The notes under the pieces: generated by a model
Told to the model about the DNA's origin: nothing
Databases searched by the model: none
Seen by the model: the letters and a program-made list of their open reading frames with translations, nothing else
Shown: positions 6,630 to 22,291 of the stretch, piece by piece
Layout of the letters: each line of letters begins with the position of its first letter
Numbering within the stretch: the stretch's first letter is position 1
Made by a program: the position numbers and the translations under genes
Assembly: GCF_020529025.1 (NCBI RefSeq)
Contig: NZ_JACNMM010000003.1
Coordinates: forward strand, 372,001 to 436,000
DNA: 64,000 nucleotides
Direction of reading: 5' to 3'
DNA from: Oceaniglobus trochenteri
GTDB lineage: Bacteria; Pseudomonadota; Alphaproteobacteria; Rhodobacterales; Rhodobacteraceae

Positions 6630-7055
6630 TTACATCAGCCGGGACAGCAGGGCGATCAGGGTGTCGCGTTCGCCCTTGTCCAGGGGCTCAAGCGTCTGTT
6701 CGGTGATCTGGGTGCCTGCTTCCTTCAGGGCCGGGATCAGATTGCGCGCCCGATCCGTCAGGGTGATCAGCCGGCGCCGCTTGTCGCCGGGATATTCGGT
6801 CAGTTCCACCAGCCCCTTGGCGCGCAGCCGGTCCACCACGCCCTTGATCGTGGCTACGTCCATCGCCGCCGCGCGGCCCAGTTCGTTCTGCGAACAGGGG
6901 CCGTTTTCCTGCAAACGGATCAGGGTGGAAAACTGCGTCGGGGTCAGACCGTCGGGCGCGTTGGCCTGAAAGATCAGGGCGTGGCGCTGGCTGACCTGGC
7001 GCAGGATGAACCCCACCTGCGCGTCAAGCTTGTAGTCCCTGCCGGGGCGCGTCAC
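6630..7055 (-). CDS. MarR family transcriptional regulator
   Basis: A 141-residue MarR regulator with the winged helix around residues 35-105 (LTPTQFSTLIRL, then the recognition helix AAMDVATIKGVVDRL and the wing YPGDKRRR). It starts with GTG at 7055, overlapping the stop of the upstream DUF1185 gene (GTGA), and is the last gene of the seven-gene catabolic operon. MarR proteins of catabolic operons usually bind an intermediate and repress their own operon. The palindrome at 14014-14029 is a candidate operator, though this link is inference. Confidence 0.9.
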   Translation of the reverse strand: MTRPGRDYKLDAQVGFILRQVSQRHALIFQANAPDGLTPTQFSTLIRLQENGPCSQNELGRAAAMDVATIKGVVDRLRAKGLVELTEYPGDKRRRLITLTDRARNLIPALKEAGTQITEQTLEPLDKGERDTLIALLSRLM

Positions 7056-7636
7056 CGCAACCCGTCCTTGCCGGTCGCATCGGCGTGGGTCAGCCCGCCG
7101 ACGCGGGGCAGGGGGCGGCCGCTGTCGGTGACGGCGACGGCCACCATGATCTCGTTCGGGCGGGGGGCGTCGTTCAGCCGCACCTCGACCCCGTCGAAAT
7201 GGCTGCGCACATAGGCGGCATCCTTGTGGCCCAGCGGCACGTCGAGATCCTGACCCGGCCCGCCCATCTTCTTCGACGAGGGCACCAGCGCCGCACCCTT
7301 TTCGACGGCCGTACGCAGGGGCGCGCCCAGCTTGGGGTGCAAGATCGCGGCGGCGTGTTCCAGTTCGCCGTTTTCACCCACCATGGCCGCCTTGCCATAG
7401 CTTTCGGCCTGGGCCGGGGCGATGCCCAGAGCCTTCACGCAGCGTTCGCCCAGCAGGGCGCCCAGTTCGGCGCCGATATCCATCAGCGGGGCAAGATCCT
7501 CAACGTATTGCCCGGCGAAGGGGTTGGCGATCACGGCAACCGCCACCGCCTTGCGGGTGGGCGGGGCGATGGTGCGGTTCATCTCCAGGTGGGTTTCCTC
7601 GACCCAGACGGCGATCTTGCGGATTTCGGCGCTCAT
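7052..7636 (-). CDS. Amino acid synthesis family protein (DUF1185), copy B
   Basis: This 194-residue protein belongs to the family called AA_synth or DUF1185 (PF06684). Known structures show a variant of the Bacillus chorismate mutase fold, and no enzymatic function is established. Shared marks with its upstream paralogue are VIANPFAGQYV, a YGKAAMVG...GELEHAA stretch, PSSKK and AYVRSHFDGVEV. It starts with ATG at 7636, overlapping the stop of the paralogue by 4 bases. Its place among hydroxylase and Hnr-type reductase genes suggests a step in N-heterocycle breakdown and not amino-acid synthesis as the name implies. Confidence 0.85.
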   Translation of the reverse strand: MSAEIRKIAVWVEETHLEMNRTIAPPTRKAVAVAVIANPFAGQYVEDLAPLMDIGAELGALLGERCVKALGIAPAQAESYGKAAMVGENGELEHAAAILHPKLGAPLRTAVEKGAALVPSSKKMGGPGQDLDVPLGHKDAAYVRSHFDGVEVRLNDAPRPNEIMVAVAVTDSGRPLPRVGGLTHADATGKDGLR

Positions 7637-8217
7637 CTCAAACCATCCTCTCCGGTGATGTCTTCGGCCAGAAGGCCGCCACAGCGGCTGTGTACCCGTG
7701 GCCCCGTTGTCATGGCCAGGATATAGCACAGTTCGTTCGCCCGCGGCGCATCGTTCAGACCCACTTCGATGCTGTCGAAGTGGCTGCGCACATAGCTGGC
7801 GTTGACATGGGTGATCGGCACGTCCAGCCGCGCCCCGGCCCGCCCGACCTTTTTCGTCGAGGGGACGATGGCCTTGGGCGCGCCCAGAACCTCGCGCATG
7901 GAATAGCCGCCGGGGGCGTGCCACAGCGCGCCATGCTCCAGCTCGCCCGCGGTGCCGATGATGGCGCCCTTGCCATAGCCCTCGATCCGCGCGGCATCGC
8001 CGCCAAGGTCACTCAGAAGGCGGCGGGCCATCGACAGGCCCAGGGGCTTCAGGTCTTCCATGAAGGGCTGGATGTCGGCCACGTAACCGTTCGCGAAGGG
8101 GTTGGCGATGACAGCGAGGACCACGCCGCGCAACAGGGGGGTGTCCGGGGCGGGGCCGAATTCGTGGAAGATTTCCTCGATCTGGGTGGCCACCTTGCGG
8201 ATCTGCACTTCAGGCAT
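7633..8217 (-). CDS. Amino acid synthesis family protein (DUF1185), copy A
   Basis: This is the first of two tandem DUF1185 proteins, also 194 residues. It aligns with the second over its full length (VIANPFANGYV, YGKGAIIG...GELEHGA, PSTKKVG, SYVRSHFDSIEV, LNDAPRANEL, ending in EDGLR in both). The two have diverged clearly, so they are better read as subunits of a heteromer or as two related enzymes than as a recent duplication. The stop of the upstream UPF0280 gene overlaps its start by 8 bases, supporting co-translation. Confidence 0.85.
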   Translation of the reverse strand: MPEVQIRKVATQIEEIFHEFGPAPDTPLLRGVVLAVIANPFANGYVADIQPFMEDLKPLGLSMARRLLSDLGGDAARIEGYGKGAIIGTAGELEHGALWHAPGGYSMREVLGAPKAIVPSTKKVGRAGARLDVPITHVNASYVRSHFDSIEVGLNDAPRANELCYILAMTTGPRVHSRCGGLLAEDITGEDGLR

Positions 8218-9067
8218 GGGCGGGTTCCTTTCCTTCGATCAGGTGTGAGGCGCCGACGATCCGCGTCTGTCCGTCCAGGAACAGGGCGGCGGCGTCAACA
8301 AGGCCACGACGCGCCATGTCACGCGCCAGGGCGGCACCCCGAGACAGGGCCGTTTCGCGATCGCGCGGCGAAATCGGGCCGCGATGGGTGACGACCGGCC
8401 TTGCGCCAAGATCGCTGTCGGGGGACAGGGCATTGGCCGGTTGCCGGGTGATGGCCGGATGGCCGGGCAGATCGACGGCATTGGCGATCAGCGTCGCGGC
8501 GACATCGGCCATGGCGGCTGTGCGCGCCAGCACCGTCACCTGGTCGGCGATGCCCATGGTCAGGCTGCGCCCGCCCCGCCCACTGGTGGCGATGCCGCGG
8601 GCGGTGTCGGTGGCGGTCAGGGTGATGCGGCCAAGGTCGCGGTTGTCGAGCGATCTCATGGCGAGGGTGAAGGCGGGGGCTTTCCGATCGTCATTGTCTA
8701 GGTCGTTCAGACATATCGCAATGTCCCCGCCGTTGTTCACATAGGCCCGGGTCAGCCCCCCGCCCGCGACCATGGCCGCCAGCACCGTGTCCGCCACCGC
8801 CCCCGCCACCGCCGCCATGGGCGTGACGAAGACCGCACGGTGCGGCCAGCAGGCGGCGTGCATCGTTCGGGCAATCGGGCGGCGCGGCACCGCGCCCACG
8901 GGCGAGCGCAGCAAGGGCAACTCCTCTACCAGTTCCTCAAGCACCGAAGCAAACCGCGCCTCCGCTGCCGAAAACGCCGCCGCGCGCGCGCCATCGGCCC
9001 CGATCACCAGGTCGATGGGGCCGTGTTGCAGGTGCAACCGGTCGCCGGGCAGGCGGGCGGCGATCAC
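8210..9067 (-). CDS. UPF0280 family protein (ApbE-like fold)
   Basis: This 285-residue protein matches UPF0280, a family related in fold to the flavin transferase ApbE. The conserved stretch FVTPMAAVAGAVADTVLAAM is followed by AYVNNGGDIAI and then by GIATSGRGGRS, which in ApbE-like proteins surround the nucleotide and metal site. It starts with a GTG at 9067 that overlaps the stop of the 6-hydroxynicotinate reductase gene (GTGA). The adjacency raises the possibility that it handles a cofactor of that flavoprotein, but UPF0280 has no proven role and this is inference. Confidence 0.82.
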   Translation of the reverse strand: MIAARLPGDRLHLQHGPIDLVIGADGARAAAFSAAEARFASVLEELVEELPLLRSPVGAVPRRPIARTMHAACWPHRAVFVTPMAAVAGAVADTVLAAMVAGGGLTRAYVNNGGDIAICLNDLDNDDRKAPAFTLAMRSLDNRDLGRITLTATDTARGIATSGRGGRSLTMGIADQVTVLARTAAMADVAATLIANAVDLPGHPAITRQPANALSPDSDLGARPVVTHRGPISPRDRETALSRGAALARDMARRGLVDAAALFLDGQTRIVGASHLIEGKEPAHA

Positions 9068-10467
9068 GGCCTGCGCCCTTTCGGCACCCGGCGGATGGCG
9101 GGGTTCATCACGTCGGCCACGGGGCGGATGCGGTCCATGTGGCCCCCAAGGGCGGCGTAATCGGACCGGCGCATGGTGAATTCGATGGGCGCGACAAGGG
9201 CAGGTGTGGGCACATAGCCGAAGGCGTTGCTGGGCATGTCCATCACGTCGGCCATCACCGTGATGCCGCCACCGGGCCAGACATAGCCATCGGCGCCCCC
9301 CACGGTCACCCGGGTCAGCGCCTCCTTGACGCTGCGGGTCAGGCCCACCGGGTTCTCGGTGACACCGGCACGCAGGCTGCCCCCGGCGCCGCCCATGAAC
9401 AGCACGGAACACATCGAGGGTTCGCAATTGTCGGCGATGCGTTCGGCCACCACGCGCAGGGCCTCGGGAATGTCGGCGGGTTGCGGCACAAGGGCATCGT
9501 CCAGCGTGAAATAGGCCCATTGTTCGCCGGTGGTAGAAATCATCAGCAGGCGCAGGCCGGGCCAGGCCACCTTCGGGTCGATCTTCTTGATGATGGTCAG
9601 CGGGTCGGTCACATCAGTGCCGCCCCAGCCGGTGCCGGGATTGGCCACCTGGAAATACCGCCCCGGCGTGCTGCGCCGCCCGGTGACGCGGATGCCCGCC
9701 GGCTTCATGTCCAACTGCTTGCCCGCTTCGTGTTCGGTCAGCACGCCGGTGATGTGATCGTCCACCACGATCACCTCGTCGACATGGGGCGCCCATTGCA
9801 GCGCGAACATCCCGATGGTGGCCGACCCGCAGCCGACCCGCATCAGGTGTTCGGGCACGCCGTCGATGACCGGCGCATGGCCCGCCTGCACGGTGATCGT
9901 CACGCCGCCGTCGATGGTCAGCTCCACCGCCTCGCGGTTGCACAGCGCCAGCAGGGCGTCGCAGGTGGCGCGACCTTCCTTCTTGCTGCCGCCGGTCAGG
10001 TGATCGACCCCGCCAAGGCTCAGCATCTTGGAGCCGTATTCACCGGTCATCACATGGCCGATCGCTTCGCCCTCGGCCCGCACCACGGCGCATTCCTCGC
10101 CGATGTGGCGGTCGGTGTCGATTTTCACCTTCACGCCGCAATAGGAAAAGATGCCCTCGGTCACGACGGTGATCATGTCCACGTCATCCACCATCTGGCT
10201 GACGATGAAGGGGGCGGGCTTGTAATCGGGATAGGTGGTGCCCGCGCCGATGGCGGTGACGAAGGGGCGATCCCCCTGCAGGATATCGCCATCCCAGTCG
10301 CGGCCCAGGAAGGGCACCATCGCTCCGCCGCCCTCGATCACGGTCAGCGGGTCAAGGCGCACCAGATCGCCCCCGTGGTTGGCATAGCGGTCACAGGCGC
10401 CCGTGCGTCCATCCGCGATATAGCACATCACCGGGCAGGCATCGCAGCGGATCTTCTCGTCGGTCAT
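9064..10467 (-). CDS. hnr: 6-hydroxynicotinate reductase homologue
   Basis: The 467-residue protein resembles Hnr of Eubacterium barkeri, an iron-sulfur flavoprotein that reduces 6-hydroxynicotinate to 1,4,5,6-tetrahydro-6-oxonicotinate. The N-terminus holds a cysteine cluster CDACPVMC with a further Cys at 25 (C8, C11, C15, C25), consistent with a [4Fe-4S] cluster. A glycine-rich region occurs near residue 240 (RVGCGSATIG) and another near 365 (FMGGAGGS). It is translationally coupled to the hydroxylase gene before it (ATGA) and the UPF0280 gene after it. Substrate identity is inferred by family and by the enamidase gene at 21128; a related N-heterocycle is possible. Confidence 0.82.
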   Translation of the reverse strand: MTDEKIRCDACPVMCYIADGRTGACDRYANHGGDLVRLDPLTVIEGGGAMVPFLGRDWDGDILQGDRPFVTAIGAGTTYPDYKPAPFIVSQMVDDVDMITVVTEGIFSYCGVKVKIDTDRHIGEECAVVRAEGEAIGHVMTGEYGSKMLSLGGVDHLTGGSKKEGRATCDALLALCNREAVELTIDGGVTITVQAGHAPVIDGVPEHLMRVGCGSATIGMFALQWAPHVDEVIVVDDHITGVLTEHEAGKQLDMKPAGIRVTGRRSTPGRYFQVANPGTGWGGTDVTDPLTIIKKIDPKVAWPGLRLLMISTTGEQWAYFTLDDALVPQPADIPEALRVVAERIADNCEPSMCSVLFMGGAGGSLRAGVTENPVGLTRSVKEALTRVTVGGADGYVWPGGGITVMADVMDMPSNAFGYVPTPALVAPIEFTMRRSDYAALGGHMDRIRPVADVMNPAIRRVPKGRRP

Positions 10468-13160
10468 GTCAGGGCTTTCAGGGCGGCGTGCAGCCGCGAT
10501 GGCGTGACGGGCACCGAACGCAACCGGGCGCCGGTGGCGTGGTATATCGCATTCAGAAGCGCGGGGGCAGTGGGAATAAGCACGTGTTCGCCCAGTCCCT
10601 TGGCACCGAAGGGGCCGTGGGCGTCGGGTTCTTCGACGATCAGGGTTTCCACCGGGGGCATGTCGCCCACGGTGGGGATCAGGTAATCGTGCAGGTTTTC
10701 GGTGCGCCCGGGCAGGTATTCCTCCATCAGCGCCATGCCCAGGCCCTGGGCGATGCCGCCCTGCACCTGGCCTTCCACCAGCAGGGGGTTGATGGCCTGG
10801 CCCACGTCATGGGCGGCGGTGAACCCGATGGGCGTGACGCTGCCAAGCGCCAGGTCAACCTCGACCACGGCAAGATGCGCGGCATAGCCGAACTGCGCAT
10901 AGGGGCTGCCCTGGCCGTTTTCATCCAGCGGCAGGGTGGGCGGATCATAGGTTTCCTCGGCCCGGAAGACATAGCCTTCGGTGTCGGCAGGCATGTCGGC
11001 AAGGGCAAGGCGGGCCTCGCCCACCAGGATCTGCCCCGCCTCGATCACGATTTCGGCGGTTTCGGGCGCGTTCAGCCGGTGCAGGATCGCGGCGCGCAGG
11101 GCGTCGCCCGCCCGCTTGGCCGCCGCGCCGGTGACGAAGGTCTGGCGCGATGCGCTGGTCTTGCCCGCGTCCGGGGTCACGTCGGTGTCGGGGCCGACAA
11201 GGGTGATCTGCGACAGGGGCAGACCCAGGGCCTGGGCAAAGATCTGGGCGATCACGGTGTTCGCGCCCTGCCCGATGTCCATGGCCCCCTGGTGCAGCAC
11301 CACGGTGCCCTCGGCGGTGATGCCCACCTTGATGGTGGATGGATTGGGAAGCGAGGTATTGCCGCAGCCGTACCAGCCCGCGGCGATCCCGACGCCGCGT
11401 TTCACCCCGTCATGGGTGGCGTTGAAAGCCTCGGCGCTGGCCCGGGCGCTGGCCCAGGCGGGGCGCAGGGCATCGAAACAGGCGCCGATGCCCACGCCCT
11501 GTTCGAAGACCTGCCCGCAGATCGTGGGCAGCCCGTTTCTCAGGGCGTTCAGCGCGCGAAACTCCAGCGGATCAAGGGCCAGCTTTTCGGCCAGTTCATC
11601 GAAAAGTACCTCTTGCGCGATGGCCGATTGCGGCACGCCGAAGCCGCGAAAGGCCCCCGAGGGCGGGCAATGGGTGTGGATGCCCTGCGCCTCGGCCCGG
11701 TAATCGGCCAGGTGATAGGGCCCCGAGGCATGAACCGGCACACGGTTGGCCACGGTCGGCCCCCAACTGGAATAGGCGCCGGTGTTGAACAACCCGTCAA
11801 AGCGCATCCCGCACAGCTTTCCGTCCTTGGTGGCGCCGATCCTGACGTGCAGGTCGGACGGATGCCGCTTGGTCGTCGATTGCATGGATTCGACCCGCGA
11901 ATAGGCCAGGCGCACCGGCTGACCCGTCTTCAGGGCGGCAAGGGCCAGGTAGGGCTGCACCGACAGGTCCAGCTTCGATCCGAAACCGCCGCCCACCGCC
12001 GTCGGCACGATCCGCACGCGCGACCTGTCCCACCCCAGGATCAGCGCCATCGAATCCCGGTCCATCACCGGGGCCTGGGTGCAGGCGTGGATTTCGATCC
12101 TGTCGCCCACCATTTGCGCGAAACCGGCCTCGGGCTCGATATAAGCGTGTTCGACGAAACCGCTGGTGAAATGCCCCTCGGCCACCACGTCGGCGCGGGC
12201 CAGGGCGGCATCGGGATCGCCGCATTGCACGAAACCGCCGGTCATGACATTGCCGGGGCGGTGGGGGTGCAGCAGGGGCGCACCTTCGGCCATGGCCTCG
12301 GCGGGCGTTTCCACGGCGGGCAGGGGGGTGAAGCTGACCGGGAAGGTGGCCAGATCGACGGTTGCATCCGCGTCACAGATGACGGCGGCCACGGCCTCAC
12401 CGCGAAAGCGCGCCTCGGATTCGGCAAAGACCGGCTGATCGACGAAACCGGGAATGACCCCGAAGGCATTCTGCCCCGGCACATCCCGCGCGGTCAGCGT
12501 GGCCACCACGCCGGGGGTGGCGCTGGCCCAGGCGTCAAGATCGCCCAGGGTAAAGGCGGCGCGGGAGTGGGGCGCGCGGACAAGGCGCAGGGTCAGGGTG
12601 CCCGGCGGCGCGATATCGTCGCCAAAGCGCGTGGTGCCCGCCACCCGCTCGGCCCCGTCGATCCGGCGCACCGCATCGCCCACCGCCCCCGTGCCCGACA
12701 GGGTGGCGGGCCGCCCCATCACCGCGTCGATGATCTTGCGATAGCCGGTGCAGCGGCACAGCACACCGCCCAGGGCATCCTGCACCTGGCTTTCGTCAGG
12801 CGCAGGCACGGCGCGCAGAAGGGCGATGGCCGATACCATCATGCCGGGTGTGCAGATGCCGCATTGCGCCGCCTGATGATCCTGAAACCGCGCGTCCAGC
12901 GCCCGCCCCTCGGGGCTGTCGCGCAGCCCGGCCAGGGTGTCCACGGCTCGCCCCGCCGCCTGTTGCGTCGGCACAAGGCAGGCACAGACCGGCGCGCCAT
13001 CCAGCAGGACGGTGCAGGCGCCGCAATCGCCTGCGTTGCAACCCACCTTCACGTCCCGCGCGCCCAGCCTTTCGCGCAGGGTGTGGGACAGACGTTCGCC
13101 CACCTTCGGTGTGGCCTCGGCGGGTTGGCCGTTCAGGATGATGCGGCAACGCTCAGACAT
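10464..13160 (-). CDS. Xanthine dehydrogenase family hydroxylase, FeS and molybdopterin subunits fused
   Basis: This 898-residue protein joins two subunits that are usually separate. Residues 1-165 are the small subunit, with a plant-type [2Fe-2S] site (GCNAGDCGACTV plus a later Cys) and the second site (QCGICTPGMM and LCRCTGY). From about 170 to the end is the molybdopterin subunit, with GGGFGSK, the SGAFRGFGVPQ segment and a C-terminal GAKGLGE carrying the catalytic Glu. Such enzymes hydroxylate N-heterocycles at carbon next to nitrogen, as nicotinate dehydrogenase does. ATG 13160 overlaps the stop of the FAD subunit by 8 bases. No XdhC-type maturation factor is beside it. Confidence 0.88.
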   Translation of the reverse strand: MSERCRIILNGQPAEATPKVGERLSHTLRERLGARDVKVGCNAGDCGACTVLLDGAPVCACLVPTQQAAGRAVDTLAGLRDSPEGRALDARFQDHQAAQCGICTPGMMVSAIALLRAVPAPDESQVQDALGGVLCRCTGYRKIIDAVMGRPATLSGTGAVGDAVRRIDGAERVAGTTRFGDDIAPPGTLTLRLVRAPHSRAAFTLGDLDAWASATPGVVATLTARDVPGQNAFGVIPGFVDQPVFAESEARFRGEAVAAVICDADATVDLATFPVSFTPLPAVETPAEAMAEGAPLLHPHRPGNVMTGGFVQCGDPDAALARADVVAEGHFTSGFVEHAYIEPEAGFAQMVGDRIEIHACTQAPVMDRDSMALILGWDRSRVRIVPTAVGGGFGSKLDLSVQPYLALAALKTGQPVRLAYSRVESMQSTTKRHPSDLHVRIGATKDGKLCGMRFDGLFNTGAYSSWGPTVANRVPVHASGPYHLADYRAEAQGIHTHCPPSGAFRGFGVPQSAIAQEVLFDELAEKLALDPLEFRALNALRNGLPTICGQVFEQGVGIGACFDALRPAWASARASAEAFNATHDGVKRGVGIAAGWYGCGNTSLPNPSTIKVGITAEGTVVLHQGAMDIGQGANTVIAQIFAQALGLPLSQITLVGPDTDVTPDAGKTSASRQTFVTGAAAKRAGDALRAAILHRLNAPETAEIVIEAGQILVGEARLALADMPADTEGYVFRAEETYDPPTLPLDENGQGSPYAQFGYAAHLAVVEVDLALGSVTPIGFTAAHDVGQAINPLLVEGQVQGGIAQGLGMALMEEYLPGRTENLHDYLIPTVGDMPPVETLIVEEPDAHGPFGAKGLGEHVLIPTAPALLNAIYHATGARLRSVPVTPSRLHAALKALT

Positions 13161-13986
13161 GGGCCAGCGCCTGCCGGATCGCCCGGTCGCAAAGTTCGGT
13201 GACGGCCTCCTGCCGGTATTCGGCGCTGCCGCGCACATCGGCGATGGGCGACAGCGGGGCAAGGTGCTCGGGCCGGGTGAGGCCCGGATCGTTGACCGGG
13301 CGCCCCACCAGCGCCGCCTCAAGCGCCGGAAGGCGTTGCGCGACCGGCGAGGCGGCGCCGACCGTCACCCGCGCCCCGGCGATCCGGCCCTCCCTGGCCC
13401 AGAGGTTGGCCGCCACCATGACGATCGAGATTACCAGGTAGCGCCGGCTGCCCAGTTTCCGAAAGGCCGAAACCATGCCATCGGGCTGTGTCGGAACATG
13501 CACCGCCGTCACGATCTCTCCCTTTTGCAGGGCGGTCTTGCGCACCCCCAGCAGGAACTTCGACAGGGGCAGGCGGCGCGTCTGCGCAGGGCCGGCGATT
13601 TCCACCTCGGCCTCGAGGGCCAGAAGCGGCGGCACGCCATCGGCAGCGGGCGAGGCATTGCAGAGGTTGCCCGCCACGGTGCCGGAATTCTGGATCTGGA
13701 CCGATCCCACCTCGCGGGCGGCGGCCCTGAGGGCATCGAAACAGGGCGGCAGGGGCGCGCGCAGGATGTCGCTCCAGGAGGTTGCGGCACCGATGCGCCA
13801 GCCCTCTGCGGTTTGCGCAATGCCGCGCAGCCCGTCGATGCGGGTCACGTCGATCAGGGTTTGCGGGGCCGGGCCCTCGCCCAGGGCGGGAAAGAAATCG
13901 GTGCCCCCGGCCACGATCCGTGCATCGCCATGACGGGCGAGTGCGGACAGGGCGTCGTCCAGGTGGGTGGGCATGGAATAGCCCAT
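13153..13986 (-). CDS. FAD-binding subunit of the molybdenum hydroxylase
   Basis: A 277-residue medium subunit of a xanthine-dehydrogenase-type enzyme, carrying electrons between the FeS centres and the final acceptor. The flavin-binding motif is visible as ARIVAGGTDFFP near residue 30. The second motif QNSGTVAGNLCNASPAAD lies near residue 105. The ATG at 13986 is preceded by AGGAGA at ideal spacing. It is the first gene of the seven-gene operon whose promoter and operator lie just upstream (14014-14055). Confidence 0.9.
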   Translation of the reverse strand: MGYSMPTHLDDALSALARHGDARIVAGGTDFFPALGEGPAPQTLIDVTRIDGLRGIAQTAEGWRIGAATSWSDILRAPLPPCFDALRAAAREVGSVQIQNSGTVAGNLCNASPAADGVPPLLALEAEVEIAGPAQTRRLPLSKFLLGVRKTALQKGEIVTAVHVPTQPDGMVSAFRKLGSRRYLVISIVMVAANLWAREGRIAGARVTVGAASPVAQRLPALEAALVGRPVNDPGLTRPEHLAPLSPIADVRGSAEYRQEAVTELCDRAIRQALAHV

Positions 13987-14013
13987 AGCTGTCTCCTGAC
14001 GGATGGCGGGCAC

Positions 14014-14061: not shown

Positions 14062-14853
14062 TCAGGGGCGCGCCACCTCCAGCGTCACGCTGGCCGTGAC
14101 CGGGCGATCATTCACCACATAGGCGCGATGATCGTTGGTGTTCAGGGTCACCTCGACCAGATGCGCCCCTTCGGGCAGGGCGCCGATACGGGCGGTGGGG
14201 GCATACATCCGCTGCAACTTCACCCCGTCGACATAAAGGTGCCCGTGACCATAGCCCGGGATATGACCCATGTCGGCCATCGGTTCCGAGAAGGTGAAGT
14301 CGTCCGACTCCACGGTCACCGTCCAGCCCGTGCCATCCGGCGTGACCGACAGGCGCAGTTGCGGCGCCGGTTCGCCCTCGCCCACGCGGCAGATGCCCCC
14401 CAGCGACAGAAGCCCCAGATCGCCCGCCGCGCCGCGCGCCATGGGATCGGACAGAACCGCGCGCGTGCTGACCCGCGCGCCGCTGGCAAACTGCAGCGTC
14501 AGGGGCAGGACGGCACCGTCGCCCGGCATTTCCTCAAGCCCCGACAGGCGCAGGTGGGCACCATCCATGGCCAGGATCGGCGCACTTTCGGCGGGCAGGG
14601 TGATTCCGTCGCCCGGCGCCACGATTCCGATGGTTCCCCCAAGGGGCGAACTGGCACCGGTCAGCCGGTCGGCCCCGCCGTCATTGTGCAGCGTCATGAA
14701 CAGCCGCAGGGTGCCGGGTTCGTCGGTCAGGGGCACCGCCGTCGCTCCCTCGGCCCGGATCGGCACCGGGGCGGGGCGCAGCGCCAGGAACAGCGCCCCA
14801 CCCGCCAGAAGGGCAAGGGTAAGCAAAATCGCGATACGGCGGCGCAGTGTCAT
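14062..14853 (-). CDS. PCu(A)C-domain-like exported protein with extra C-terminal domain
   Basis: A 263-residue protein with an N-terminal membrane segment or signal (RRRIAILLTLALLAGGALFLA). Residues 45-130 align with the copper chaperone PCu(A)C fold: a DRLTGASSP stretch, GITLPA and AHLRLSGL. The His and Met ligands of true PCu(A)C are not at their usual places (IGIVAPG stands where a His is expected). A second domain of about 110 residues carries IPGYGHGHLYVDG and TNDHRAYV, whose histidines could bind metal. It is divergent from a polytopic membrane protein with a 35-base gap. I infer a periplasmic metal-related role with low certainty. Confidence 0.6.
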   Translation of the reverse strand: MTLRRRIAILLTLALLAGGALFLALRPAPVPIRAEGATAVPLTDEPGTLRLFMTLHNDGGADRLTGASSPLGGTIGIVAPGDGITLPAESAPILAMDGAHLRLSGLEEMPGDGAVLPLTLQFASGARVSTRAVLSDPMARGAAGDLGLLSLGGICRVGEGEPAPQLRLSVTPDGTGWTVTVESDDFTFSEPMADMGHIPGYGHGHLYVDGVKLQRMYAPTARIGALPEGAHLVEVTLNTNDHRAYVVNDRPVTASVTLEVARP

Positions 14854-14888
14854 TGGCATCCCGGCAAAGCTGTGGCTTGCTGCGCAGC

Positions 14889-16292
14889 ATGTTTGCCCTG
14901 CGCCGTTCCGTCAATCTCTGCCTTGCCGTGCTTCTGCCCTCGGCCGCGCTGGCGCATCCGGCGCAGGGGGGCTTTGTCCTGCTGCTGCCCACCGGGCTTT
15001 ACATCACCGGCGGCTGCCTTGCCGTCGCGCTGAGCGTGCTGATCGTCGCCGGCCTGCCCGATGGCTGGCTGACCGGGCTGTTCACCCCCCGCAGGCTGAT
15101 GCGCACACCTCCGCTGGCCATGGCGCGCCGGATCATCAGCCTGCTGTCGCTGGCGCTGCTGGCCTGGCTTCTATGGGTCGGGTTCAACGGGCCGCGCGAC
15201 CCGCTGTCGAACCTGCTGCCGCTGACAATCTGGACGCTGTGGTGGATTGCTCTGTTCACGCTTCAGGGGGTGGTGGGCAATCTCTGGGCCTGGGTCAATC
15301 CTTGGCGCGGGCTGCACGGCCTGCTGTGGGGCGATGCGCCGCCGCCGTTGCGCCTGCCGGCCCGGCTGGGCCATGCCCCGGCGATCCTGGTCTTTCTCGC
15401 CGTCACCGGCTTTGCGCTGGCCGATCCGGCGCCCGACGATCCGGCAAGGCTGGCGGCCTTCGTCATGGGATATGCCCTGTTCACCTTTGCCGGCATGGCG
15501 CTGTTTGGCGCCGACGACTGGTTGGAGCGGGCCGAGTGCTTCACCCTTCTGTTGCGGCTTTTCGCGACGCTGGCGCCCCTGCGCTGGCATCCGCGCCTTG
15601 CCATCGGCTGCCCCGGCTGGGCCGTGCCGCAGCGCGACGTGCCGCTGTCGCTGGGCCTTTTCGTGATCGTGATCCTGGGCGCGGGGAGCTTTGACGGGTT
15701 GAACGACACCTTCTGGTGGCTGGCGCAGATCGGCATCAACCCGCTGGCCTTTCCGGGCCGTTCGGCGGTGATCTGGCCGACGGCCCTGGGCCTGCTGGGG
15801 GCGAACCTGGCGCTGGTGCTGGTGTTCGCCGCCTGCGTGGCCACCGGGCACCTGGCCCTGCGTGCGGTCGATCCGGCGGCACCGCTGCCGCCGCTGAAAG
15901 GGGCCATCGCGCATCTGGCGATGTCGGTCCTGCCCATCGCCTTTGGCTATCACGTCGCCCATTTCCTGACCACATTCCTGGTCAACGGCCAATATGCCCT
16001 TGCGGCCCTGACCGACCCGCTGGCGAAGGGCGCCGATCTTCTTGGGCTGGGGCAGTTCTATGTCACCACGGGATTCTTCAACACCCGCGCCACGGTGCAG
16101 GCGATCTGGCTGGGGCAGGCGGGAATCATCGTTCTGGCGCACATGCTTGGCGTGCTTCTGGCGCATCGGGCGGCTGTCGTGCTCTATGGACGCGGACATT
16201 CTGCGCTGATCGCGCAAATCCCCTTGGCGGTGTTCATGGTCCTCTATACGCTGTTGGGGCTATGGCTTCTTGCGGCGCCGCGCGGCGCATGA
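14889..16292 (+). CDS. Polytopic integral membrane protein, function unknown
   Basis: The 467-residue product has a cleavable-looking signal (CLAVLLPSAALAHPAQ) followed by roughly ten hydrophobic segments across its length. Notable polar membrane residues include GYHVAHFLTTF near residue 350 and the aromatic WAWVNPWRG near residue 135. I do not recognise a characterised family with confidence. Start 14889 was chosen because it directly precedes the signal peptide; an upstream GTG at 14847 would overlap the divergent PCu(A)C-like gene. That pairing suggests a shared envelope or metal function. It lies between the two halves of the heterocycle island without obvious connection. Confidence 0.6.
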   Translation: MFALRRSVNLCLAVLLPSAALAHPAQGGFVLLLPTGLYITGGCLAVALSVLIVAGLPDGWLTGLFTPRRLMRTPPLAMARRIISLLSLALLAWLLWVGFNGPRDPLSNLLPLTIWTLWWIALFTLQGVVGNLWAWVNPWRGLHGLLWGDAPPPLRLPARLGHAPAILVFLAVTGFALADPAPDDPARLAAFVMGYALFTFAGMALFGADDWLERAECFTLLLRLFATLAPLRWHPRLAIGCPGWAVPQRDVPLSLGLFVIVILGAGSFDGLNDTFWWLAQIGINPLAFPGRSAVIWPTALGLLGANLALVLVFAACVATGHLALRAVDPAAPLPPLKGAIAHLAMSVLPIAFGYHVAHFLTTFLVNGQYALAALTDPLAKGADLLGLGQFYVTTGFFNTRATVQAIWLGQAGIIVLAHMLGVLLAHRAAVVLYGRGHSALIAQIPLAVFMVLYTLLGLWLLAAPRGA

Positions 16293-16318
16293 CCCTGAGT
16301 AAAGAAAAATCTGGACAG

Positions 16319-16333: not shown

Positions 16334-16408
16334 ACAACTTGAATTCCAATGACAAGGGCCAGAAGGCCCCATCCCGGCGCCCGGCGCCACCCGACCAGGA
16401 GGTTTGAC

Positions 16409-17704
16409 ATGACCGAAAGACTCCCCGCACGTGGATTGCTTGACCGGCGCGGCGCGCTGAAGACACTTGGCCTTGGCGCCGGGGCCCTTGCCGCCAGCAC
16501 GGCGATGCCCGGTTTCATCCAGGCGCAATCCAGCGCCCCGATCAGGATCGGGTTCCAGGTGCACCGGACGGGCATCGGCGCCTCGTACGGGCGCTGGTAT
16601 GACCGCACCAGCCAGGCCGCCGTCAAGCGGATCAACGACGCGGGCGGCATCAACGGGCGCATGGTGGAACTGGTCCCCGAGGATGACGGCACCGACCCCA
16701 AGCGCGGCGCCGAGGTGGTCGAGAAATTCGCCACCCAAAGCAAGTGCGACGTGGCCTTCGGCACGCTCTTCTCCCATGTCGTCATCGGCTCGGCCCCCCG
16801 GGCGGGCGAATTGAAGCTGCCCTATTTCGTCGTCTCCGAAGGCCATCACGTGGCCAGCGGAATGCTGAACCGCTATACCCTGCAGCCCGGAATCACCGAC
16901 GTGAAAAGCCAGGTCCAGGCGATGGCGCCCTTCGTGTCGCAGAACCTGGGCAAGAAGGTCTGCATGATCTTCCCGGATTTCGCCTTCGGCCACGATCACC
17001 GCGATTATTTCAGCAAGGCGTTCGAGGCACAGGGCGGCACGATCAACGCCAAGATCGCGATTCCGCCCACCGAAACCAGCTTTACCAAGTATTTCCCGCA
17101 GATCCCCCGCGACACCGAGGTGATCTATCACGTCATGACCGGCCCCGCCGTCCTGACCTTCGTGAAGGAACTGGGCGAATTCTTCGGCCCCTCGCGCCCC
17201 GAGCTCTTCGGCTTCATCGACAGCCTCGAAGCGGTCGACATGTCGTCGCCGGGGCTGGAATTCCTTGAAGGGTCCTACATGTGGGAAGGCAACCCGCGCT
17301 ATGCCCAGGCCGACCAGACCGAATACGACAAAGCCTACCGCGAGGCCGTCGGCGTGGACGACAACGGCGCCTCGGTCAGCGACGGCAAGGATGTCAGCAC
17401 CTATGCCCACATGTTCGGATGCTGGGAAACGCTGAACATCATCAAGGCGGGAATGGAGGCTTCGGGATACCAGGGCCCCGACGACCGCGCCGCGCTGATC
17501 GAGGCGGTCGAGGCCATGACCGACATGCCCGAAGGCATGGACCACCCCCAGGGCGCCAAGCGGTTCAATGGCAAGACCCACCAGGTCTTCGGCCACCAGT
17601 ACATCAGCAAGGTCGAAGGCGGGCGGATGAACCGCGTCCACACCACCAGCATCGAAGATACCCTCTACGAGGACGAAGTGGATTACACCACGCAGTCCTT
17701 CTGA
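16409..17704 (+). CDS. ABC transporter substrate-binding protein (branched-chain amino acid/amide type)
   Basis: A 431-residue periplasmic binding protein of the Leu/Ile/Val-binding superfamily. It begins with a twin-arginine-like leader (DRRGALKTLGLGAGALAAST) and continues with IRIGFQVHRTG. ATG 16409 follows AGGAGG by six bases. It leads an operon with two permeases, two ATPases and an enamidase-like gene, which points to an aromatic or heterocyclic carboxylate ligand and not an amino acid. That ligand assignment is inference. An inverted repeat follows the gene, which may favour high relative expression of the binding protein. Confidence 0.88.
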   Translation: MTERLPARGLLDRRGALKTLGLGAGALAASTAMPGFIQAQSSAPIRIGFQVHRTGIGASYGRWYDRTSQAAVKRINDAGGINGRMVELVPEDDGTDPKRGAEVVEKFATQSKCDVAFGTLFSHVVIGSAPRAGELKLPYFVVSEGHHVASGMLNRYTLQPGITDVKSQVQAMAPFVSQNLGKKVCMIFPDFAFGHDHRDYFSKAFEAQGGTINAKIAIPPTETSFTKYFPQIPRDTEVIYHVMTGPAVLTFVKELGEFFGPSRPELFGFIDSLEAVDMSSPGLEFLEGSYMWEGNPRYAQADQTEYDKAYREAVGVDDNGASVSDGKDVSTYAHMFGCWETLNIIKAGMEASGYQGPDDRAALIEAVEAMTDMPEGMDHPQGAKRFNGKTHQVFGHQYISKVEGGRMNRVHTTSIEDTLYEDEVDYTTQSF

Positions 17705-17751
17705 ACCGGCGCACAGCCGACAGGGCAGCCCATGGTGCGACGGCGGGATCT

Positions 17752-17818: not shown

Positions 17819-17881
17819 ATCTGTCGGGCCGCGCTGACGCCCGTGGTTTTGCCCTTCCCATCCAGAGGATCGAACTGAGAC

Positions 17882-18808
17882 ATGGATTTCGGCCCCCACC
17901 TTATGCTTGCCATGCTGGAAGGCGCGGTTGCCGCGGCCATCCTGGCGCTGACGGCCATGGGCCTTTCGGTGGTCTTCGGCGTGATGCGCGTGGTCAACGT
18001 GGCGCACGGCGAATTCTACATGCTGGGCGCGGTCATCGCCTGGTTCGTGGCAACGACCCTGGGCACCCATCCGGCGCTGGGGTTCGTCGCCGCGCTGGTC
18101 ATTGCCCCGGCCCTTGTGGGGGCGCTGGCGGCGGCGGCGGACAAGCTGATCCTGCAACGCATCGACTATGACCCCGAGCGCACGATCGTCGCCACCATCG
18201 GTCTGCTTTACATCATCCAGCAGGGCACCCTGATGACCTTCGGCCCCGATGCCCGCCCGGTCGAACCCCCCTTCAACAGCCGCATCGCCCTGCCGTGGTA
18301 CGAATGGGTGGATGGCAAACTGTCGTTCTACTATCCTTGGGGGCTGTCCATCACGTCGTACAAGCTTTTCGTCATTGCCGCCGCCGCCGCGATCCTGGTG
18401 GCGCTCTGGCTGTTCATGACGCGCACCCGGGCCGGTCTGATCATGCGCGCCACCCAGCAGGACAGCCAGATGGCGCAGGCCTTCGGCATCCCGGTGTCGC
18501 GGGTCTATGCCCTTGTCTTCGGGCTGGGCGCCGCGCTTGCCGCCATGGGCGCCGTGCTGGTGGTGCCGATCCAGCAGGCCCATTACCTGATGGGGGCCGA
18601 TCCGCTGCTTCTGTCCTTCATCGTGGTGATCATCGGCGGGCTCGGGTCGCTGCCCGGCACGGTGATTGCCGCCATTCTGATCGGGATGAGCGACGGCGTG
18701 ATCTCGGTCTTCTTTTCCCCCACGCTGGCCAAGATCCTTGCCACGCTGGCGGTGGCCATGGTGCTGGTCTTCCGGCCCCAGGGCATTCTGGGCAAGAAGG
18801 CGCACTGA
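17882..18808 (+). CDS. Branched-chain-type ABC transporter permease (LivH-like)
   Basis: A 308-residue inner-membrane permease with about eight hydrophobic segments and the LivH hallmark VVFGVMRVVNVAHGEFYMLGA near residues 25-45. A second conserved region is AQAFGIPVSRVYALVFGLGAALA, followed by GGLGSLPGT, the cytoplasmic loop contacting the ATPases. AGAGGA precedes the ATG at 17882. The stop overlaps the next permease start (TGATG). Confidence 0.92.
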   Translation: MDFGPHLMLAMLEGAVAAAILALTAMGLSVVFGVMRVVNVAHGEFYMLGAVIAWFVATTLGTHPALGFVAALVIAPALVGALAAAADKLILQRIDYDPERTIVATIGLLYIIQQGTLMTFGPDARPVEPPFNSRIALPWYEWVDGKLSFYYPWGLSITSYKLFVIAAAAAILVALWLFMTRTRAGLIMRATQQDSQMAQAFGIPVSRVYALVFGLGAALAAMGAVLVVPIQQAHYLMGADPLLLSFIVVIIGGLGSLPGTVIAAILIGMSDGVISVFFSPTLAKILATLAVAMVLVFRPQGILGKKAH

Positions 18809-19743
18809 TGGGACGGGGGCTGGTTCTGCATCTCTGCACCATCGCGCTGCTGGCGGCGGCGTTCTTCGTGTTGCCGGCCTATCATTCGGGCAACCTGGCG
18901 CGGATCATGGTGCTGGCGATCTATGCCATGGGGTACAATCTGGCCTTCGGCTATACCGGGCTGCTGTCGCTGGGCCACGCCTTGTTCTTTGCCGCCGGGA
19001 TGTACGGGCTGTCGCTGGCCATGACGCATCTTGCCATCCCCGCCCTGCCGGCCCTTGGGCTGGCGCTGGTGGCCGCCGGAGTGGTGGCGGGCATCACCGG
19101 GGCGCTGGCGCTGCGCACGCGGGGGGTGGCCTTCATGATCGTGACGCTGATGTTCGCGCAGGCGGGATACCTCACCGCGCTCTATTTCAGCGAATGGACC
19201 AGGGGCGAGGAAGGCTTCGTCATTCCCCAGGCCATGCGCAACATCGCCGGCATCGACCTGAGCGGCGAGACGGGGCGCTATTTCGCCGCGCTGTTCCTGT
19301 TTGCGGTCGTCCTGCTTCTGATCGGTGCGCTGGTGCGTGCACCCTTCGGGCGCACCCTGATCGCCATCCGCGAGAACGAGGCGCGGGCGACCATGCTGGG
19401 CTATGACGTGCAGCGGCTGAAGTGGATCGCGCTGGTGGTCTCGGGGATGATCTCGGGGCTGGCGGGGGCCGCCTATGCCCTGCTGTTCGGCTATGCCGGT
19501 GCCAGTTTCGCCGCCGTGCCCTATTCGATCTTCCCGCTGCTCTATGTCCTGCTGGGCGGGGCGGGCACCACCCTTGGGCCGCTGATCGGGGCGGTGTTCA
19601 TGTTCTACCTGATCGACCTGTCCAGCGGTCTGACCGACGCCTACATGCTCGTGGCGGGCGTGGTGCTGGTGGCGCTGACGTTGTTCCTGCCCCAGGGCAT
19701 TCTGGGCACGCTGCGCAAGAGGGGGCTGCCGTGGCTTCCGTGA
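18808..19743 (+). CDS. Branched-chain-type ABC transporter permease (LivM-like)
   Basis: The second permease (311 residues) shows the LivM pattern YNLAFGYTGLLSLGHALFFAAGMY near residue 45 and the coupling region IRENEARATMLGYDV. A GGAGTTLGPLIGA loop follows. It begins at ATG 18808, sharing bases with the stop of the preceding gene, and its end overlaps the GTG-initiated ATPase. The two permeases would form the heterodimeric channel. Confidence 0.92.
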   Translation: MGRGLVLHLCTIALLAAAFFVLPAYHSGNLARIMVLAIYAMGYNLAFGYTGLLSLGHALFFAAGMYGLSLAMTHLAIPALPALGLALVAAGVVAGITGALALRTRGVAFMIVTLMFAQAGYLTALYFSEWTRGEEGFVIPQAMRNIAGIDLSGETGRYFAALFLFAVVLLLIGALVRAPFGRTLIAIRENEARATMLGYDVQRLKWIALVVSGMISGLAGAAYALLFGYAGASFAAVPYSIFPLLYVLLGGAGTTLGPLIGAVFMFYLIDLSSGLTDAYMLVAGVVLVALTLFLPQGILGTLRKRGLPWLP

Positions 19744-20438
19744 TCCTGCAAACCCGTGGCCTGACCAAGACATATGCCGGTGTCACCGCCAACACCGACG
19801 TTGATTTCGACCTGCCCGCCGGGCAGATCCGCGCGCTGATCGGGCCGAACGGGGCGGGAAAATCCACCTTCGTCGGCATGCTCTGCGGGCGGATCGAGGC
19901 GACGCGCGGCACGGTTTCCTTTGACGGGCAGGACATATCGCACCTGCCCGCGCACAGGCGTATCGCCCTTGGCATTGCCTATACCTTCCAGATCACCTCG
20001 GTCTTTGCCGGGCTGTCGGTGCATGAAAACGTCGCCCTTGCGGCACGGCGCGCGGGGGGCAGCGCGGCGCGGGTGGCCGATGTGCTGAACCGGGTCGGTC
20101 TGGCCGACAGGGCCGGGCAGGTGGCGGGCGATCTGTCCTACGGCCATCAGCGGATCCTCGAGATCGGGATGGGCCTGGCCCAGAACCCCCGGCTGTTCAT
20201 CCTGGACGAACCCACCCAGGGCCTGGCCGAATCCGAGATCGCGGATTTCAAGGCGCTGATCACCGGGCTGAAGGATACCACCATCCTGCTGATCGAACAC
20301 AACATGTCGGTGGTCATGGAAACCGCGCAGTATATCACCGTGCTGAACCAGGGGCAGATTCTGGCCGAGGGCACCCCCGACCAGATCCGCGCCGACACCC
20401 ATGTGCAGGCCGCCTACCTGGGAACCGAGGATGCTTGA
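19731..20438 (+). CDS. ABC transporter ATP-binding protein (LivG-like)
   Basis: A 235-residue ATPase with Walker A GPNGAGKST, a Q-loop in FQITSVF, the signature in DLSYGHQRILEI (LSYGHQR in place of LSGGQ, normal for LivG-like proteins), Walker B LFILDEP and the switch His in LLIEHNM. Translation starts at GTG 19731 behind GAGGGGG and overlaps the permease by 13 bases. It powers import together with the next gene. Confidence 0.92.
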   Translation: MASVILQTRGLTKTYAGVTANTDVDFDLPAGQIRALIGPNGAGKSTFVGMLCGRIEATRGTVSFDGQDISHLPAHRRIALGIAYTFQITSVFAGLSVHENVALAARRAGGSAARVADVLNRVGLADRAGQVAGDLSYGHQRILEIGMGLAQNPRLFILDEPTQGLAESEIADFKALITGLKDTTILLIEHNMSVVMETAQYITVLNQGQILAEGTPDQIRADTHVQAAYLGTEDA

Positions 20439-21126
20439 ACTTGCCGACATCCACGCCGCCTATGGCCGGGTGAACACCCTGTTCGGCGTATCGCTGACGG
20501 CGAAACCGGGGGAAATCACCTGCCTGCTGGGGCGCAATGGGGCCGGGAAAACCACCGTCATGCGGGCCATCATGGGGCTGCTGCCGGTCAGCGCCGGAAC
20601 GATCACGCTGGACGGGGCGCCGCTGCATGGCCTGCCGCCCGAACGGATCGCGAAACAGCGGGTCGGCTATATCCCCCAGGGCCGCCGTTTGTTCGCCGAA
20701 CTGAGCGTGGCCGAGAATATCGACATCGGCCTGATGACCTGCGGCGAAGGGCGCGACACCCGCGACTGGGTGCTGTCGATCTTTCCCCGGTTGCGCGAAC
20801 GCCTGTCCCAGCGGGCCGAAACCCTGTCGGGCGGTGAACAGCAGATGCTGGCCACCGCCCGCGCCCTGTGCCTGCGCCCGCGCGTGTTGCTGCTGGACGA
20901 ACCCACCGAAGGGCTTCAGCCCAGCATGATCGACCAGATCCGCCAGGTGGTGCTGCGGATGAAATCCGAAGGTGTTGCCGTGGTGCTGGTGGAGCAGCGG
21001 ATGGAGGCGATCCTGTCGCTGGCCGATCTCGCGGTCTTCATCGAAAGCGGGCGCACCATCGAAACCCTGCGCGGCGATGCCCTGCGCGCGAACCCCGAAA
21101 CCCTGACCCGCCACCTGGGAGTGTGA
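20431..21126 (+). CDS. ABC transporter ATP-binding protein (LivF-like)
   Basis: The second ATPase (231 residues) contains Walker A GRNGAGKTT, LSGGEQQ signature, Walker B VLLLDEP and the LivF-typical YIPQGRRLFAELSVAENI. ATG 20431 overlaps the previous stop by 8 bases. It is followed after one base by the enamidase-like gene, so transport and ring opening are made from one transcript. Confidence 0.92.
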   Translation: MLELADIHAAYGRVNTLFGVSLTAKPGEITCLLGRNGAGKTTVMRAIMGLLPVSAGTITLDGAPLHGLPPERIAKQRVGYIPQGRRLFAELSVAENIDIGLMTCGEGRDTRDWVLSIFPRLRERLSQRAETLSGGEQQMLATARALCLRPRVLLLDEPTEGLQPSMIDQIRQVVLRMKSEGVAVVLVEQRMEAILSLADLAVFIESGRTIETLRGDALRANPETLTRHLGV

Positions 21127-21127
21127 C

Positions 21128-22291
21128 ATGTCCGAAAAGCTCGTCATCAAGAACATCGGCCTGATGCTGTCCGGCAAGATGGAGCAACCGATCTACGAGG
21201 CCGACACGATCATTGCGGTGGATGGCAAGATCACCGAATGGGGCCGCGAAAAGGACATGGACCTGGAGGGCGCGACAACCACGGTCGATGCCAATGGCGT
21301 CACCCTGGCGCCGGGCCTGATCGACAGCCACGTTCACCCGGTGGTGGGCGATTACACCCCCCGCCAGCAACAGCTGCACTGGATCGACAGCACGCTGCAC
21401 GGTGGCGTCACCACCCTGATCTCGGCGGGCGAGGTGCATATGCCCGGCCGCCCGAACGATCCGGTGGGTACCGTGGCGATGGCGATCGCGGCGCAGCGCT
21501 GGTACGAGAACCTGCGCCCCTCGGGGATGAAGGTGCATGCCGGGGCGCCCCTGCTTCAGAAGGGGCTGGAGGAACATCATTTCAAGCAGATGGCCGATGC
21601 GGGCGTGCGCCTGATCGGCGAGGTGGGTCTGGGCACCATCAAGGACGGCAAGACCGCGAACGAGATGATCGGCTGGGCCCGCGAGTACGGGATGCAAAGC
21701 ACCATCCACACCGGAGGCCCCTCAATCCCCGGATCGGGGTTGATCGACGCCGACATGGTGCTGGAAACCGGAACCGATGTGGTGGGCCATATCAACGGCG
21801 GCCATTCCGCCCTGCCGGATGATCAGATCGTCTGCATCTGCGAAAGCTGCAAGGCGGCGCTTGAAATCGTGCACAACGGCAACGAACGCGCCGCGCTTCT
21901 GACCCTGAACACGGCGCGCGAGCTGGACAAGCTGGATCAGGTGATCCTGGGCACCGACGGGCCGGCCGGATCGGGGGTGCAGCCCCTGGGCATCCTGCGG
22001 ATGATCGCCATGCTGGCGAGCCTTGGCAACGTGCCCGCCGAAATCGCCTTCTGCTTTGGCAACGGCAATACGGCGCGCCAGCGCAAGCTGGATACCGGGT
22101 TGATCGAAAAGGGCATGTGCGCCGATTTCGTCCTGATGGACCAGGCCCAGCACGCGCCGGGCAAGACGATCCTTGAATCGGTGCAACTGGGCAACCTGCC
22201 CGGCGTGGGGATGACCGTGATCGACGGGCGCATCACCAGCCAGCGTTCGCGCAACACGCCGCCCGCCACGCGCCTGCCGCAAACGGTGTGA
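21128..22291 (+). CDS. ena: Enamidase-like amidohydrolase
   Basis: This 387-residue metal-dependent amidohydrolase resembles enamidase of Eubacterium barkeri nicotinate fermentation, which hydrolyses 1,4,5,6-tetrahydro-6-oxonicotinate to 2-formylglutarate and ammonia. Similarities I recall include the opening IIKNIG-type strand, a GDYTPRQ motif after the metal-binding HVH (H68, H70), HGGVTTLISAG, the GEVGLGTIK segment, HTGG (H194) and the C-terminal SRNTPPA. It ends the transporter operon. Together with the Hnr homologue on the opposite operon it is the best evidence that this island degrades a nicotinate-type ring. Confidence 0.82.
   Translation: MSEKLVIKNIGLMLSGKMEQPIYEADTIIAVDGKITEWGREKDMDLEGATTTVDANGVTLAPGLIDSHVHPVVGDYTPRQQQLHWIDSTLHGGVTTLISAGEVHMPGRPNDPVGTVAMAIAAQRWYENLRPSGMKVHAGAPLLQKGLEEHHFKQMADAGVRLIGEVGLGTIKDGKTANEMIGWAREYGMQSTIHTGGPSIPGSGLIDADMVLETGTDVVGHINGGHSALPDDQIVCICESCKAALEIVHNGNERAALLTLNTARELDKLDQVILGTDGPAGSGVQPLGILRMIAMLASLGNVPAEIAFCFGNGNTARQRKLDTGLIEKGMCADFVLMDQAQHAPGKTILESVQLGNLPGVGMTVIDGRITSQRSRNTPPATRLPQTV

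Follow-up and report, generated by a model that had tools for sequence, protein, structure and literature searches.

Positions 6630–22291 of a 64,000-nucleotide stretch of the Oceaniglobus trochenteri genome (contig NZ_JACNMM010000003.1, positions 372,001 to 436,000; the whole stretch is hereafter called the window) encode a molybdenum hydroxylase, a 6-hydroxynicotinate reductase homologue (Hnr), an enamidase homologue, a Liv-type ATP-binding cassette (ABC) importer, and members of two unexplained families, UPF0280 and DUF1185. What does this cluster break down, and what do the two unexplained families contribute? The initial annotation had proposed two facing operons that combine import with the first three steps of the Eubacterium barkeri nicotinate fermentation, in a variant pathway perhaps directed at a different ring carboxylate. 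The genes it named all lie within the interval, as judged from Pfam and NCBIfam matches, a match to PDB entry 2VUN and, for Hnr, named homologues, and homology backs both import and the three reductive steps; the operons, however, diverge, one reading along the minus strand from 14013 down to 6630 and the other along the plus strand between 16349 and 22291.

We conclude that the cluster very probably takes up nicotinate, or a compound from which nicotinate is formed, and degrades it reductively, and that it belongs to an already known kind of cluster. The window adds one further bacterium with a reductive nicotinate cluster, and the comparison with other genomes matters more. It suggests three new things, namely the co-occurrence of UPF0280 with Hnr together with the fold of UPF0280, mutually exclusive enamidase and HyuAB forms of the cluster, and the tracking of enamidase by DUF1185; UPF0280 and DUF1185 thereby acquire testable roles. 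The fullest version, in which Hnr is a flavoenzyme without known structural relative that is matured by a dedicated ApbE-like UPF0280, and enamidase and an ATP-dependent HyuAB lactamase have repeatedly replaced each other in opening one shared intermediate, is put forward tentatively, as possible rather than probable.

The predicted route and its substrate

All substrates and reactions, as well as the parts assigned to UPF0280 and DUF1185, are inferred from homology and gene context. The importer would take the ring acid into the cell, the hydroxylase (a flavin adenine dinucleotide (FAD) subunit and a fused iron–sulphur/molybdenum subunit) would convert it to 6-hydroxynicotinate, Hnr would reduce that ring to 1,4,5,6-tetrahydro-6-oxonicotinate (THON), and the enamidase would open THON to 2-formylglutarate and ammonia. 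UPF0280 would install or mature a flavin of Hnr, and DUF1185 would act as soon as the ring is open, with the enamine or the formyl diacid as its substrate. The remainder, decarboxylation to glutarate semialdehyde and conversion to glutaryl-coenzyme A as reported for Azorhizobium, would fall to genes outside the cluster, in which no genes of this lower route (glutarate, glutaryl-coenzyme A) were found.

Far from being remote homologues among random neighbours, a possibility raised by the initial annotation, these genes recur as a set. Of 37 fetched alphaproteobacterial Hnr loci, 36 contain UPF0280, 33 the molybdenum subunit (counted from 40% identity upwards) and 31 the FAD subunit; in the fetched stretches of 80 named enamidase loci we found Hnr in 51, UPF0280 in 49 and DUF1185 in 62. 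Hnr, UPF0280, DUF1185 and enamidase stand together in records of Sulfitobacter, Afipia, Bradyrhizobium, Acidovorax, Desulfobacteraceae and Clostridiales, and the gene set of the window exceeds chance. UPF0280 and DUF1185 are present and fermentation genes lacking in the cluster, as had been noted, but these are not signs of an unusual variant: the two families are usual (UPF0280 in 49/51 of the Hnr-holding loci, DUF1185 in 62/80, anaerobes included). Enamidase–DUF1185 pairs also occur where the fetched stretch lacks Hnr (L083, L087, L089, L090, L092, L098, L101 and L140, several of them Chloroflexi), and L087 and L090 retain the fused hydroxylase; such loci may depend on a different ring reductase or have their Hnr gene elsewhere.

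By homology, nicotinate rather than another ring acid appears the likeliest substrate, and an aerobic version of the route that continues to glutarate is already published (PMC3511419, in its accessible part, citing Kitts 1992). In the window, molybdenum hydroxylase, Hnr and enamidase are encoded jointly with the ABC importer. The enamidase homologue aligns over residues 4–383 with the E. barkeri enzyme at 45% identity, and HxH, Glu, His, His and Asp, which we take to be the binuclear metal ligands, are invariant in an alignment of 10 rows. Against the two molybdenum chains of E. barkeri nicotinate dehydrogenase (3hrd), the molybdenum subunit scores 257 and 197 bits; whole-region scores are 346 bits for 4-hydroxybenzoyl-coenzyme A reductase and 282 bits for xanthine dehydrogenase, and summing the two chain scores for comparison with these single-chain scores is rough.

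It is improbable that the cluster instead handles a different N-heterocyclic acid, such as a methylated or otherwise substituted nicotinate or a picolinate-type acid, by the same chemistry. Hnr, present in 38 of 240 alphaproteobacterial genomes (the class sample, own genome included), is 63–73% identical to the window protein across them, with little sign of a substrate shift, although among the 37 fetched loci the transporter and hydroxylase vary more than Hnr does, and the importer could bind another ring acid. Both nicotinate dehydrogenase molybdenum chains match well, and enamidase chemistry requires a THON-like enamide. Some homologous clusters have an additional Rieske oxygenase gene next to the importer, and its product could remove a methyl group from a modified acid or hydroxylate it, but the window cluster has no Rieske gene. 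The alpha subunit genes concerned lie at 16058–17125 of L170 (Sulfitobacter) and 15529–16599 of L171 (Sagittula); such an oxygenase could feed a methylated ring acid, for example trigonelline, into the route.

UPF0280 and Hnr

Searches of Pfam and NCBIfam with Hnr, the predicted reductase of the aromatic ring acid, gave no match, and a PDB sequence search gave nothing significant (a single hit, E 1.5); its name comes from its homologues, because several bear 6-hydroxynicotinate reductase in their records. Since Foldseek with the Hnr model (predicted local distance difference test, pLDDT, 87) also gave no PDB match at E ≤ 0.001, no fold relative can be named, and neither search found a relative of solved structure. 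The cysteines of a CxxCxxxC-x9-C motif (C8, C11, C15 and C25) are invariant in 48 rows, and we infer that they are iron–sulphur ligands. Hnr also occurs in 22 of 61 genomes of a relatives set, which shares G000, G001, G007 and others with the class sample, and in five of six genomes of the genus (own included), the sixth being 75% complete. One of the 22 copies in the relatives set, from a genome of the same family (G258, contig C28, 4397–5617), is remote (54%) and interrupted by five internal stop codons; that genome contains no enamidase orthologue and no HyuA match, and the cluster is likely a decayed one. An archaeal metagenome-assembled contig (L076, Archaeoglobi archaeon JdFR-42) carries Hnr, UPF0280, enamidase and Liv-type importer genes.

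UPF0280 was found in exactly the 38 genomes of the class sample that bear Hnr (Fisher p 4e-45, kinship ignored), and the two genes adjoin in 49 of 51 named Hnr-holding loci. By a distance rule 46 of these 49 pairs are at most 400 bases apart; in L127, L086 and L076 the rule measured the first matched Hnr piece only, and frame positions place the genes side by side. One of the two remaining loci, L070, ends at Hnr; the other, L103, is taken up below. The AlphaFold model of UPF0280 (pLDDT 94) gave 33 Foldseek PDB hits at E ≤ 0.001, two of them to the solved structure of UPF0280 itself (2o34) and 31 to flavin transferases of the ApbE/FmnB/Ftp type (E 2e-6 to 9e-4, template modelling (TM) score 0.28–0.49 by query length, 10–16% sequence identity). 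Gly114-Asp115, Thr161-Ser162-Gly163, and Asp188 and Thr192 (Asp-x3-Thr) are invariant in 32 rows and presumably resemble flavin- and metal-binding elements of ApbE; UPF0280 matched no Pfam family at E ≤ 0.01, and so no ApbE sequence family.

Because its distribution in the class sample coincides exactly with that of Hnr and its model has an ApbE-type flavin-transferase fold, UPF0280 probably installs or matures a flavin of Hnr. The modest TM scores and low identities to the 31 transferases would also suit a structural subunit, an FAD-binding electron donor or a chaperone of Hnr, as would the lack of a clear flavinylation acceptor motif in 48 rows of Hnr, where the Thr of a GCGSAT stretch varies (Thr in 40 rows, Ala in 7, Ser in 1). 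We give such a non-transferase role appreciable weight, short of preferring it, given that after 2o34 all 31 hits are ApbE, FmnB or Ftp and that the ApbE-like elements do not vary. A literature search found no mention of UPF0280 and three papers that name DUF1185, and no report of a covalent flavin in E. barkeri Hnr was found among the papers listed.

Ring opening and DUF1185

The reduced ring appears to be opened by one of two modules. Among 57 Hnr genomes, 26 have enamidase, 28 the hydantoinase pair HyuAB, none both and three neither. The 38 of the class sample divide into 14 with an enamidase orthologue (at least 63% identity), 23 with HyuA (at least 61% identity to the L034 protein), none with both and one with neither (G226, 70% complete; p 2e-9, kinship ignored), and another 19 Hnr-bearing genomes, drawn from the family of the window's organism, into 12, 5, none and 2 (G258 and G273; p 0.002). 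The HyuA cut falls in a gap, the remaining matches listed being 44–53% identical, and HyuA counts cover Hnr-bearing genomes only; enamidase-like proteins of 35–41% in G060, G104, G185, G202 and G210 were excluded as orthologues. G082 has an enamidase orthologue without Hnr. In 11 of the 14 enamidase genomes no more than 20 kb separates that gene from UPF0280 (367 kb in G197; a different contig in G001 and G071). Of the 23 HyuA genomes, 15 have the gene at most 12 kb from Hnr, four have it at a greater distance on the contig of Hnr, and in four it is on a different contig. Because 23 of the 38 Hnr genomes carry one HyuA type and no enamidase orthologue, an annotation that relied on enamidase alone would miss them.

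The two forms are interleaved on protein trees. On the Hnr tree (75 rows; a quick method with the Shimodaira–Hasegawa-like approximate likelihood ratio test, SH-aLRT, as sole support; 10 near-identical Bradyrhizobium loci and rows below 400 aligned residues omitted), the labels need 10 switches, of which the starred branches force at least five, the named loci being labelled enamidase type from their own neighbourhood alone, without a HyuA search. A sister pair on this tree, L050 (enamidase) and L067 (HyuA), has SH-aLRT support of 100. The hydroxylase tree (42 rows of more than 40% identity and 600 residues) also interleaves the labels, with at least five switches forced; on both trees the labels are nonetheless more clustered than shuffled labels.

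Because the forms are mutually exclusive and interleaved on both trees, HyuAB is predicted to be an unrecognised substitute for enamidase, and one substrate with two exchangeable ring-opening enzymes would be the simplest reading. HyuAB-family enzymes act on hydantoins and 5-oxoproline, and with this in mind the cluster of the HyuAB-type relatives could have another substrate, HyuAB being no enamidase substitute. DUF1185 is missing in 4 of 23 HyuA-type and in none of 14 enamidase genomes with Hnr, and in 8 of 23 HyuA is not close to Hnr (over 12 kb away, or on a separate contig), as that explanation might lead one to expect; the repeated switches forced on both trees and the fully supported L050–L067 pair argue the other way, and we rate it a sizeable minority possibility. 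HyuAB clusters for one particular other ring (picolinate to aminoadipate) were considered and dropped as first choice, the Hnr and hydroxylase trees interleaving the forms. A literature search found no report tying a hydantoinase to 6-hydroxynicotinate or 6-oxonicotinate.

DUF1185 follows enamidase closely, being present in 15 of 15 enamidase-orthologue genomes, 19 of 23 HyuA-type genomes and 15 of 202 genomes without Hnr. Of its 73 copies, spread over 49 of 240 genomes, 26 have an enamidase match (whatever its identity, among the matches listed) no more than 20 kb away and 35 have UPF0280 no more than 20 kb away (two partial UPF0280 pieces unused); 20 are near both and 32 near neither. Nineteen of these 32, with one copy beside an enamidase-like gene, were fetched as L150–L169, and their neighbours (alpha/beta hydrolase in 8, aldehyde dehydrogenase in 6, luciferase-like monooxygenase in 5, flavin reductase in 4) fit trigonelline clusters, as far as gene content indicates. 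On a FastTree phylogeny, which did not include the TgnF sequence itself, trigonelline-type copies, copy B (a clade of 46 rows), and copy A with the anaerobes' copies separate (support 98, 100 and 89), and both window copies fall outside the clade of the luciferase/flavin-reductase clusters. The conservation pattern looks like that of an enzyme, with 27 positions at least 95% conserved in 129 rows, including Lys82, Glu91, Glu93, His94, His100, Arg144, His146 and Asp156.

We favour a role for DUF1185 just after ring opening over decarboxylation because it tracks enamidase and also stands beside Hgd, the fermentation dehydrogenase; it probably processes the enamine or the formyl diacid. In the anaerobe loci L071, L072, L077 and L089 it accompanies an Hgd homologue (265 bits to 3cky in L072; the other copies are 48–55% identical to that of L072), and the carboxyl group stays in these organisms, which makes it unlikely that DUF1185 decarboxylates 2-formylglutarate to glutarate semialdehyde. 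In the work of Kitts in 1992 the aerobic route is said to need such a step, as decarboxylation by DUF1185 would supply, and in the trigonelline route a formyl diacid may also arise. The homologue TgnF of that route is reported to stimulate succinic semialdehyde oxidation, which would also suit a decarboxylase, and for HcdD no comparable effect could be demonstrated (PMC7913881, accessible part).

Several observations weigh against the route and roles proposed here. L103 holds Hnr, and no UPF0280 was found in its 6.4-kb contig. Our Hnr comparison covers database-named homologues and the anaerobes' copies (41–48%), without the E. barkeri sequence. The top single PDB match of the molybdenum subunit, iron–sulphur part included, is a Desulfovibrio aldehyde oxidoreductase (405 bits), and the PDB matches of the binding protein are weak. 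L076, which holds Hnr, UPF0280 and enamidase, and 17 other named enamidase loci (18 of 80) show no DUF1185; several are short contigs, but L076 and L111 are among those 21 kb long. The E. barkeri enamidase is called bifunctional, performing opening and deamination (PMC9304392, accessible part), and therefore less is left for DUF1185 to do. Our search found no paper assaying these enzymes from this lineage.

Genes of the locus and known systems

The minus-strand genes from the FAD subunit to MarR overlap their neighbours by a few bases and are on that account taken as one operon (Table 1). The Sulfitobacter counterpart of the FAD subunit is recorded as a xanthine dehydrogenase family subunit M, and the counterparts of the binding protein in L037 and L039 share 68% and 73% identity with it. 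The 481-residue membrane-type protein between the operons recurs in Hnr loci at 32–42% identity (L037, L039, L040, L054, L061, L130, L172 and L173), and its PCuAC neighbour had no match at E ≤ 0.001 among the loci searched. The insertion site, viewed through two flanking genes (by eye dxs and a histone-like HU gene), varies in gene order among relatives. Some relatives' clusters include a ferredoxin-NADP reductase gene, whose product might supply Hnr with electrons and of which the own genome has a 60% homologue elsewhere (queried with the Sulfitobacter protein). When the surroundings of 54 named enamidase loci were searched for further conserved genes, a family emerged that is present at 22 loci, is about 273 residues long and by eye resembles ferredoxin-NADP reductase.

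Table 1. Features of the cluster, in window coordinates, with the evidence for each assignment.
Feature	Position	Strand	Evidence
MarR-family regulator	6630–7055	-	Pfam MarR_2 and MarR above cut-off; homologue in 18/37 Hnr loci
DUF1185 copy A (PF06684), predicted enamidase partner	7052–7636	-	245 bits, cut-off 27
DUF1185 copy B (PF06684), paralogue beside UPF0280	7633–8217	-	224 bits, cut-off 27; PDB 3byq, E 1.2e-58
UPF0280 (NF003322), predicted flavin-transfer/maturation partner of Hnr	8210–9067	-	NF003322, 333.4 bits against cut-off 290, scored on open reading frame 8210–9520, which includes the gene
6-hydroxynicotinate reductase homologue (Hnr)	9064–10467	-	80% identity to Sulfitobacter pontiacus protein of that recorded name
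Fused [2Fe-2S] and molybdopterin subunit, predicted nicotinate hydroxylase	10464–13160	-	Pfam MoCoBD_1/2, Fer2, Fer2_2
Hydroxylase FAD-binding subunit	13153–14013	-	Open reading frame and translation; homologue in 31/37 loci
PCuAC copper-chaperone domain protein, between operons	14062–14859	-	Pfam; about 50 bases upstream of FAD subunit
Membrane-type protein, 481 residues, between operons	14847–16292	+	Pfam search without match
Periplasmic substrate-binding protein, Liv-type importer	16349–17704	+	Peripla_BP_6, 170 bits
LivH-type permease	17882–18808	+	BPD_transp_2, 126 bits
LivM-type permease (approximate start)	18808–19743	+	BPD_transp_2, 141 bits
LivG-type ATPase (approximate start)	19731–20438	+	ABC_tran and BCA_ABC_TP_C
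LivF-type ATPase	20401–21126	+	ABC_tran, 114 bits
Enamidase homologue, predicted opener of the reduced ring	21128–22291	+	2VUN, 351 bits, E 5.9e-104

The E. barkeri fermentation cluster shares the hydroxylase, the Hnr-type reductase and the enamidase with the window, but in the window the molybdenum chains are fused and the cluster has no Hgd or mutase gene; in the other anaerobes compared, the N terminus of Hnr is longer by about 60 residues, which include ferredoxin-like cysteines. The trigonelline (tgn) clusters share a DUF1185 gene (TgnF) beside pyridine-acid ring-opening enzymes (PMC7913881, accessible part), but there the ring is cleaved by an oxygenase and the DUF1185 proteins form a separate clade. 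The HyuAB-type clusters of Sagittula stellata, Neorhizobium and Fuscovulum share Hnr, UPF0280, DUF1185 and the importer, and those of Sagittula and Fuscovulum the hydroxylase; they differ in having a hydantoinase/oxoprolinase pair and no enamidase in the stretch, with a nicB-type hydroxylase gene in Neorhizobium.

According to the accessible part of PMC3511419, a reductive nicotinate cluster with two unexplained proteins is present in Azorhizobium caulinodans, Bradyrhizobium japonicum, Rhodopseudomonas palustris HaA2 and SG-6C, a 6-chloronicotinate degrader that converts this compound to 6-hydroxynicotinate. This type, likewise alphaproteobacterial, shares with the window the first three steps, the ABC importer and conserved unknown genes; UPF0280 and DUF1185 would fit the two unexplained proteins. 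A possible difference lies in the hydroxylase: the window has the fused form with its FAD subunit, and the Bradyrhizobium loci show a weak hydroxylase match (about 100 bits) at the edge of the fetched stretch. Plasmid pDSM110277_c of Sulfitobacter pontiacus shares the amidohydrolase, hydroxylase, Hnr, UPF0280, two DUF1185 genes, MarR and the ABC importer, and differs from the window cluster in being plasmid-borne and in having ferredoxin-NADP reductase and Rieske oxygenase genes.

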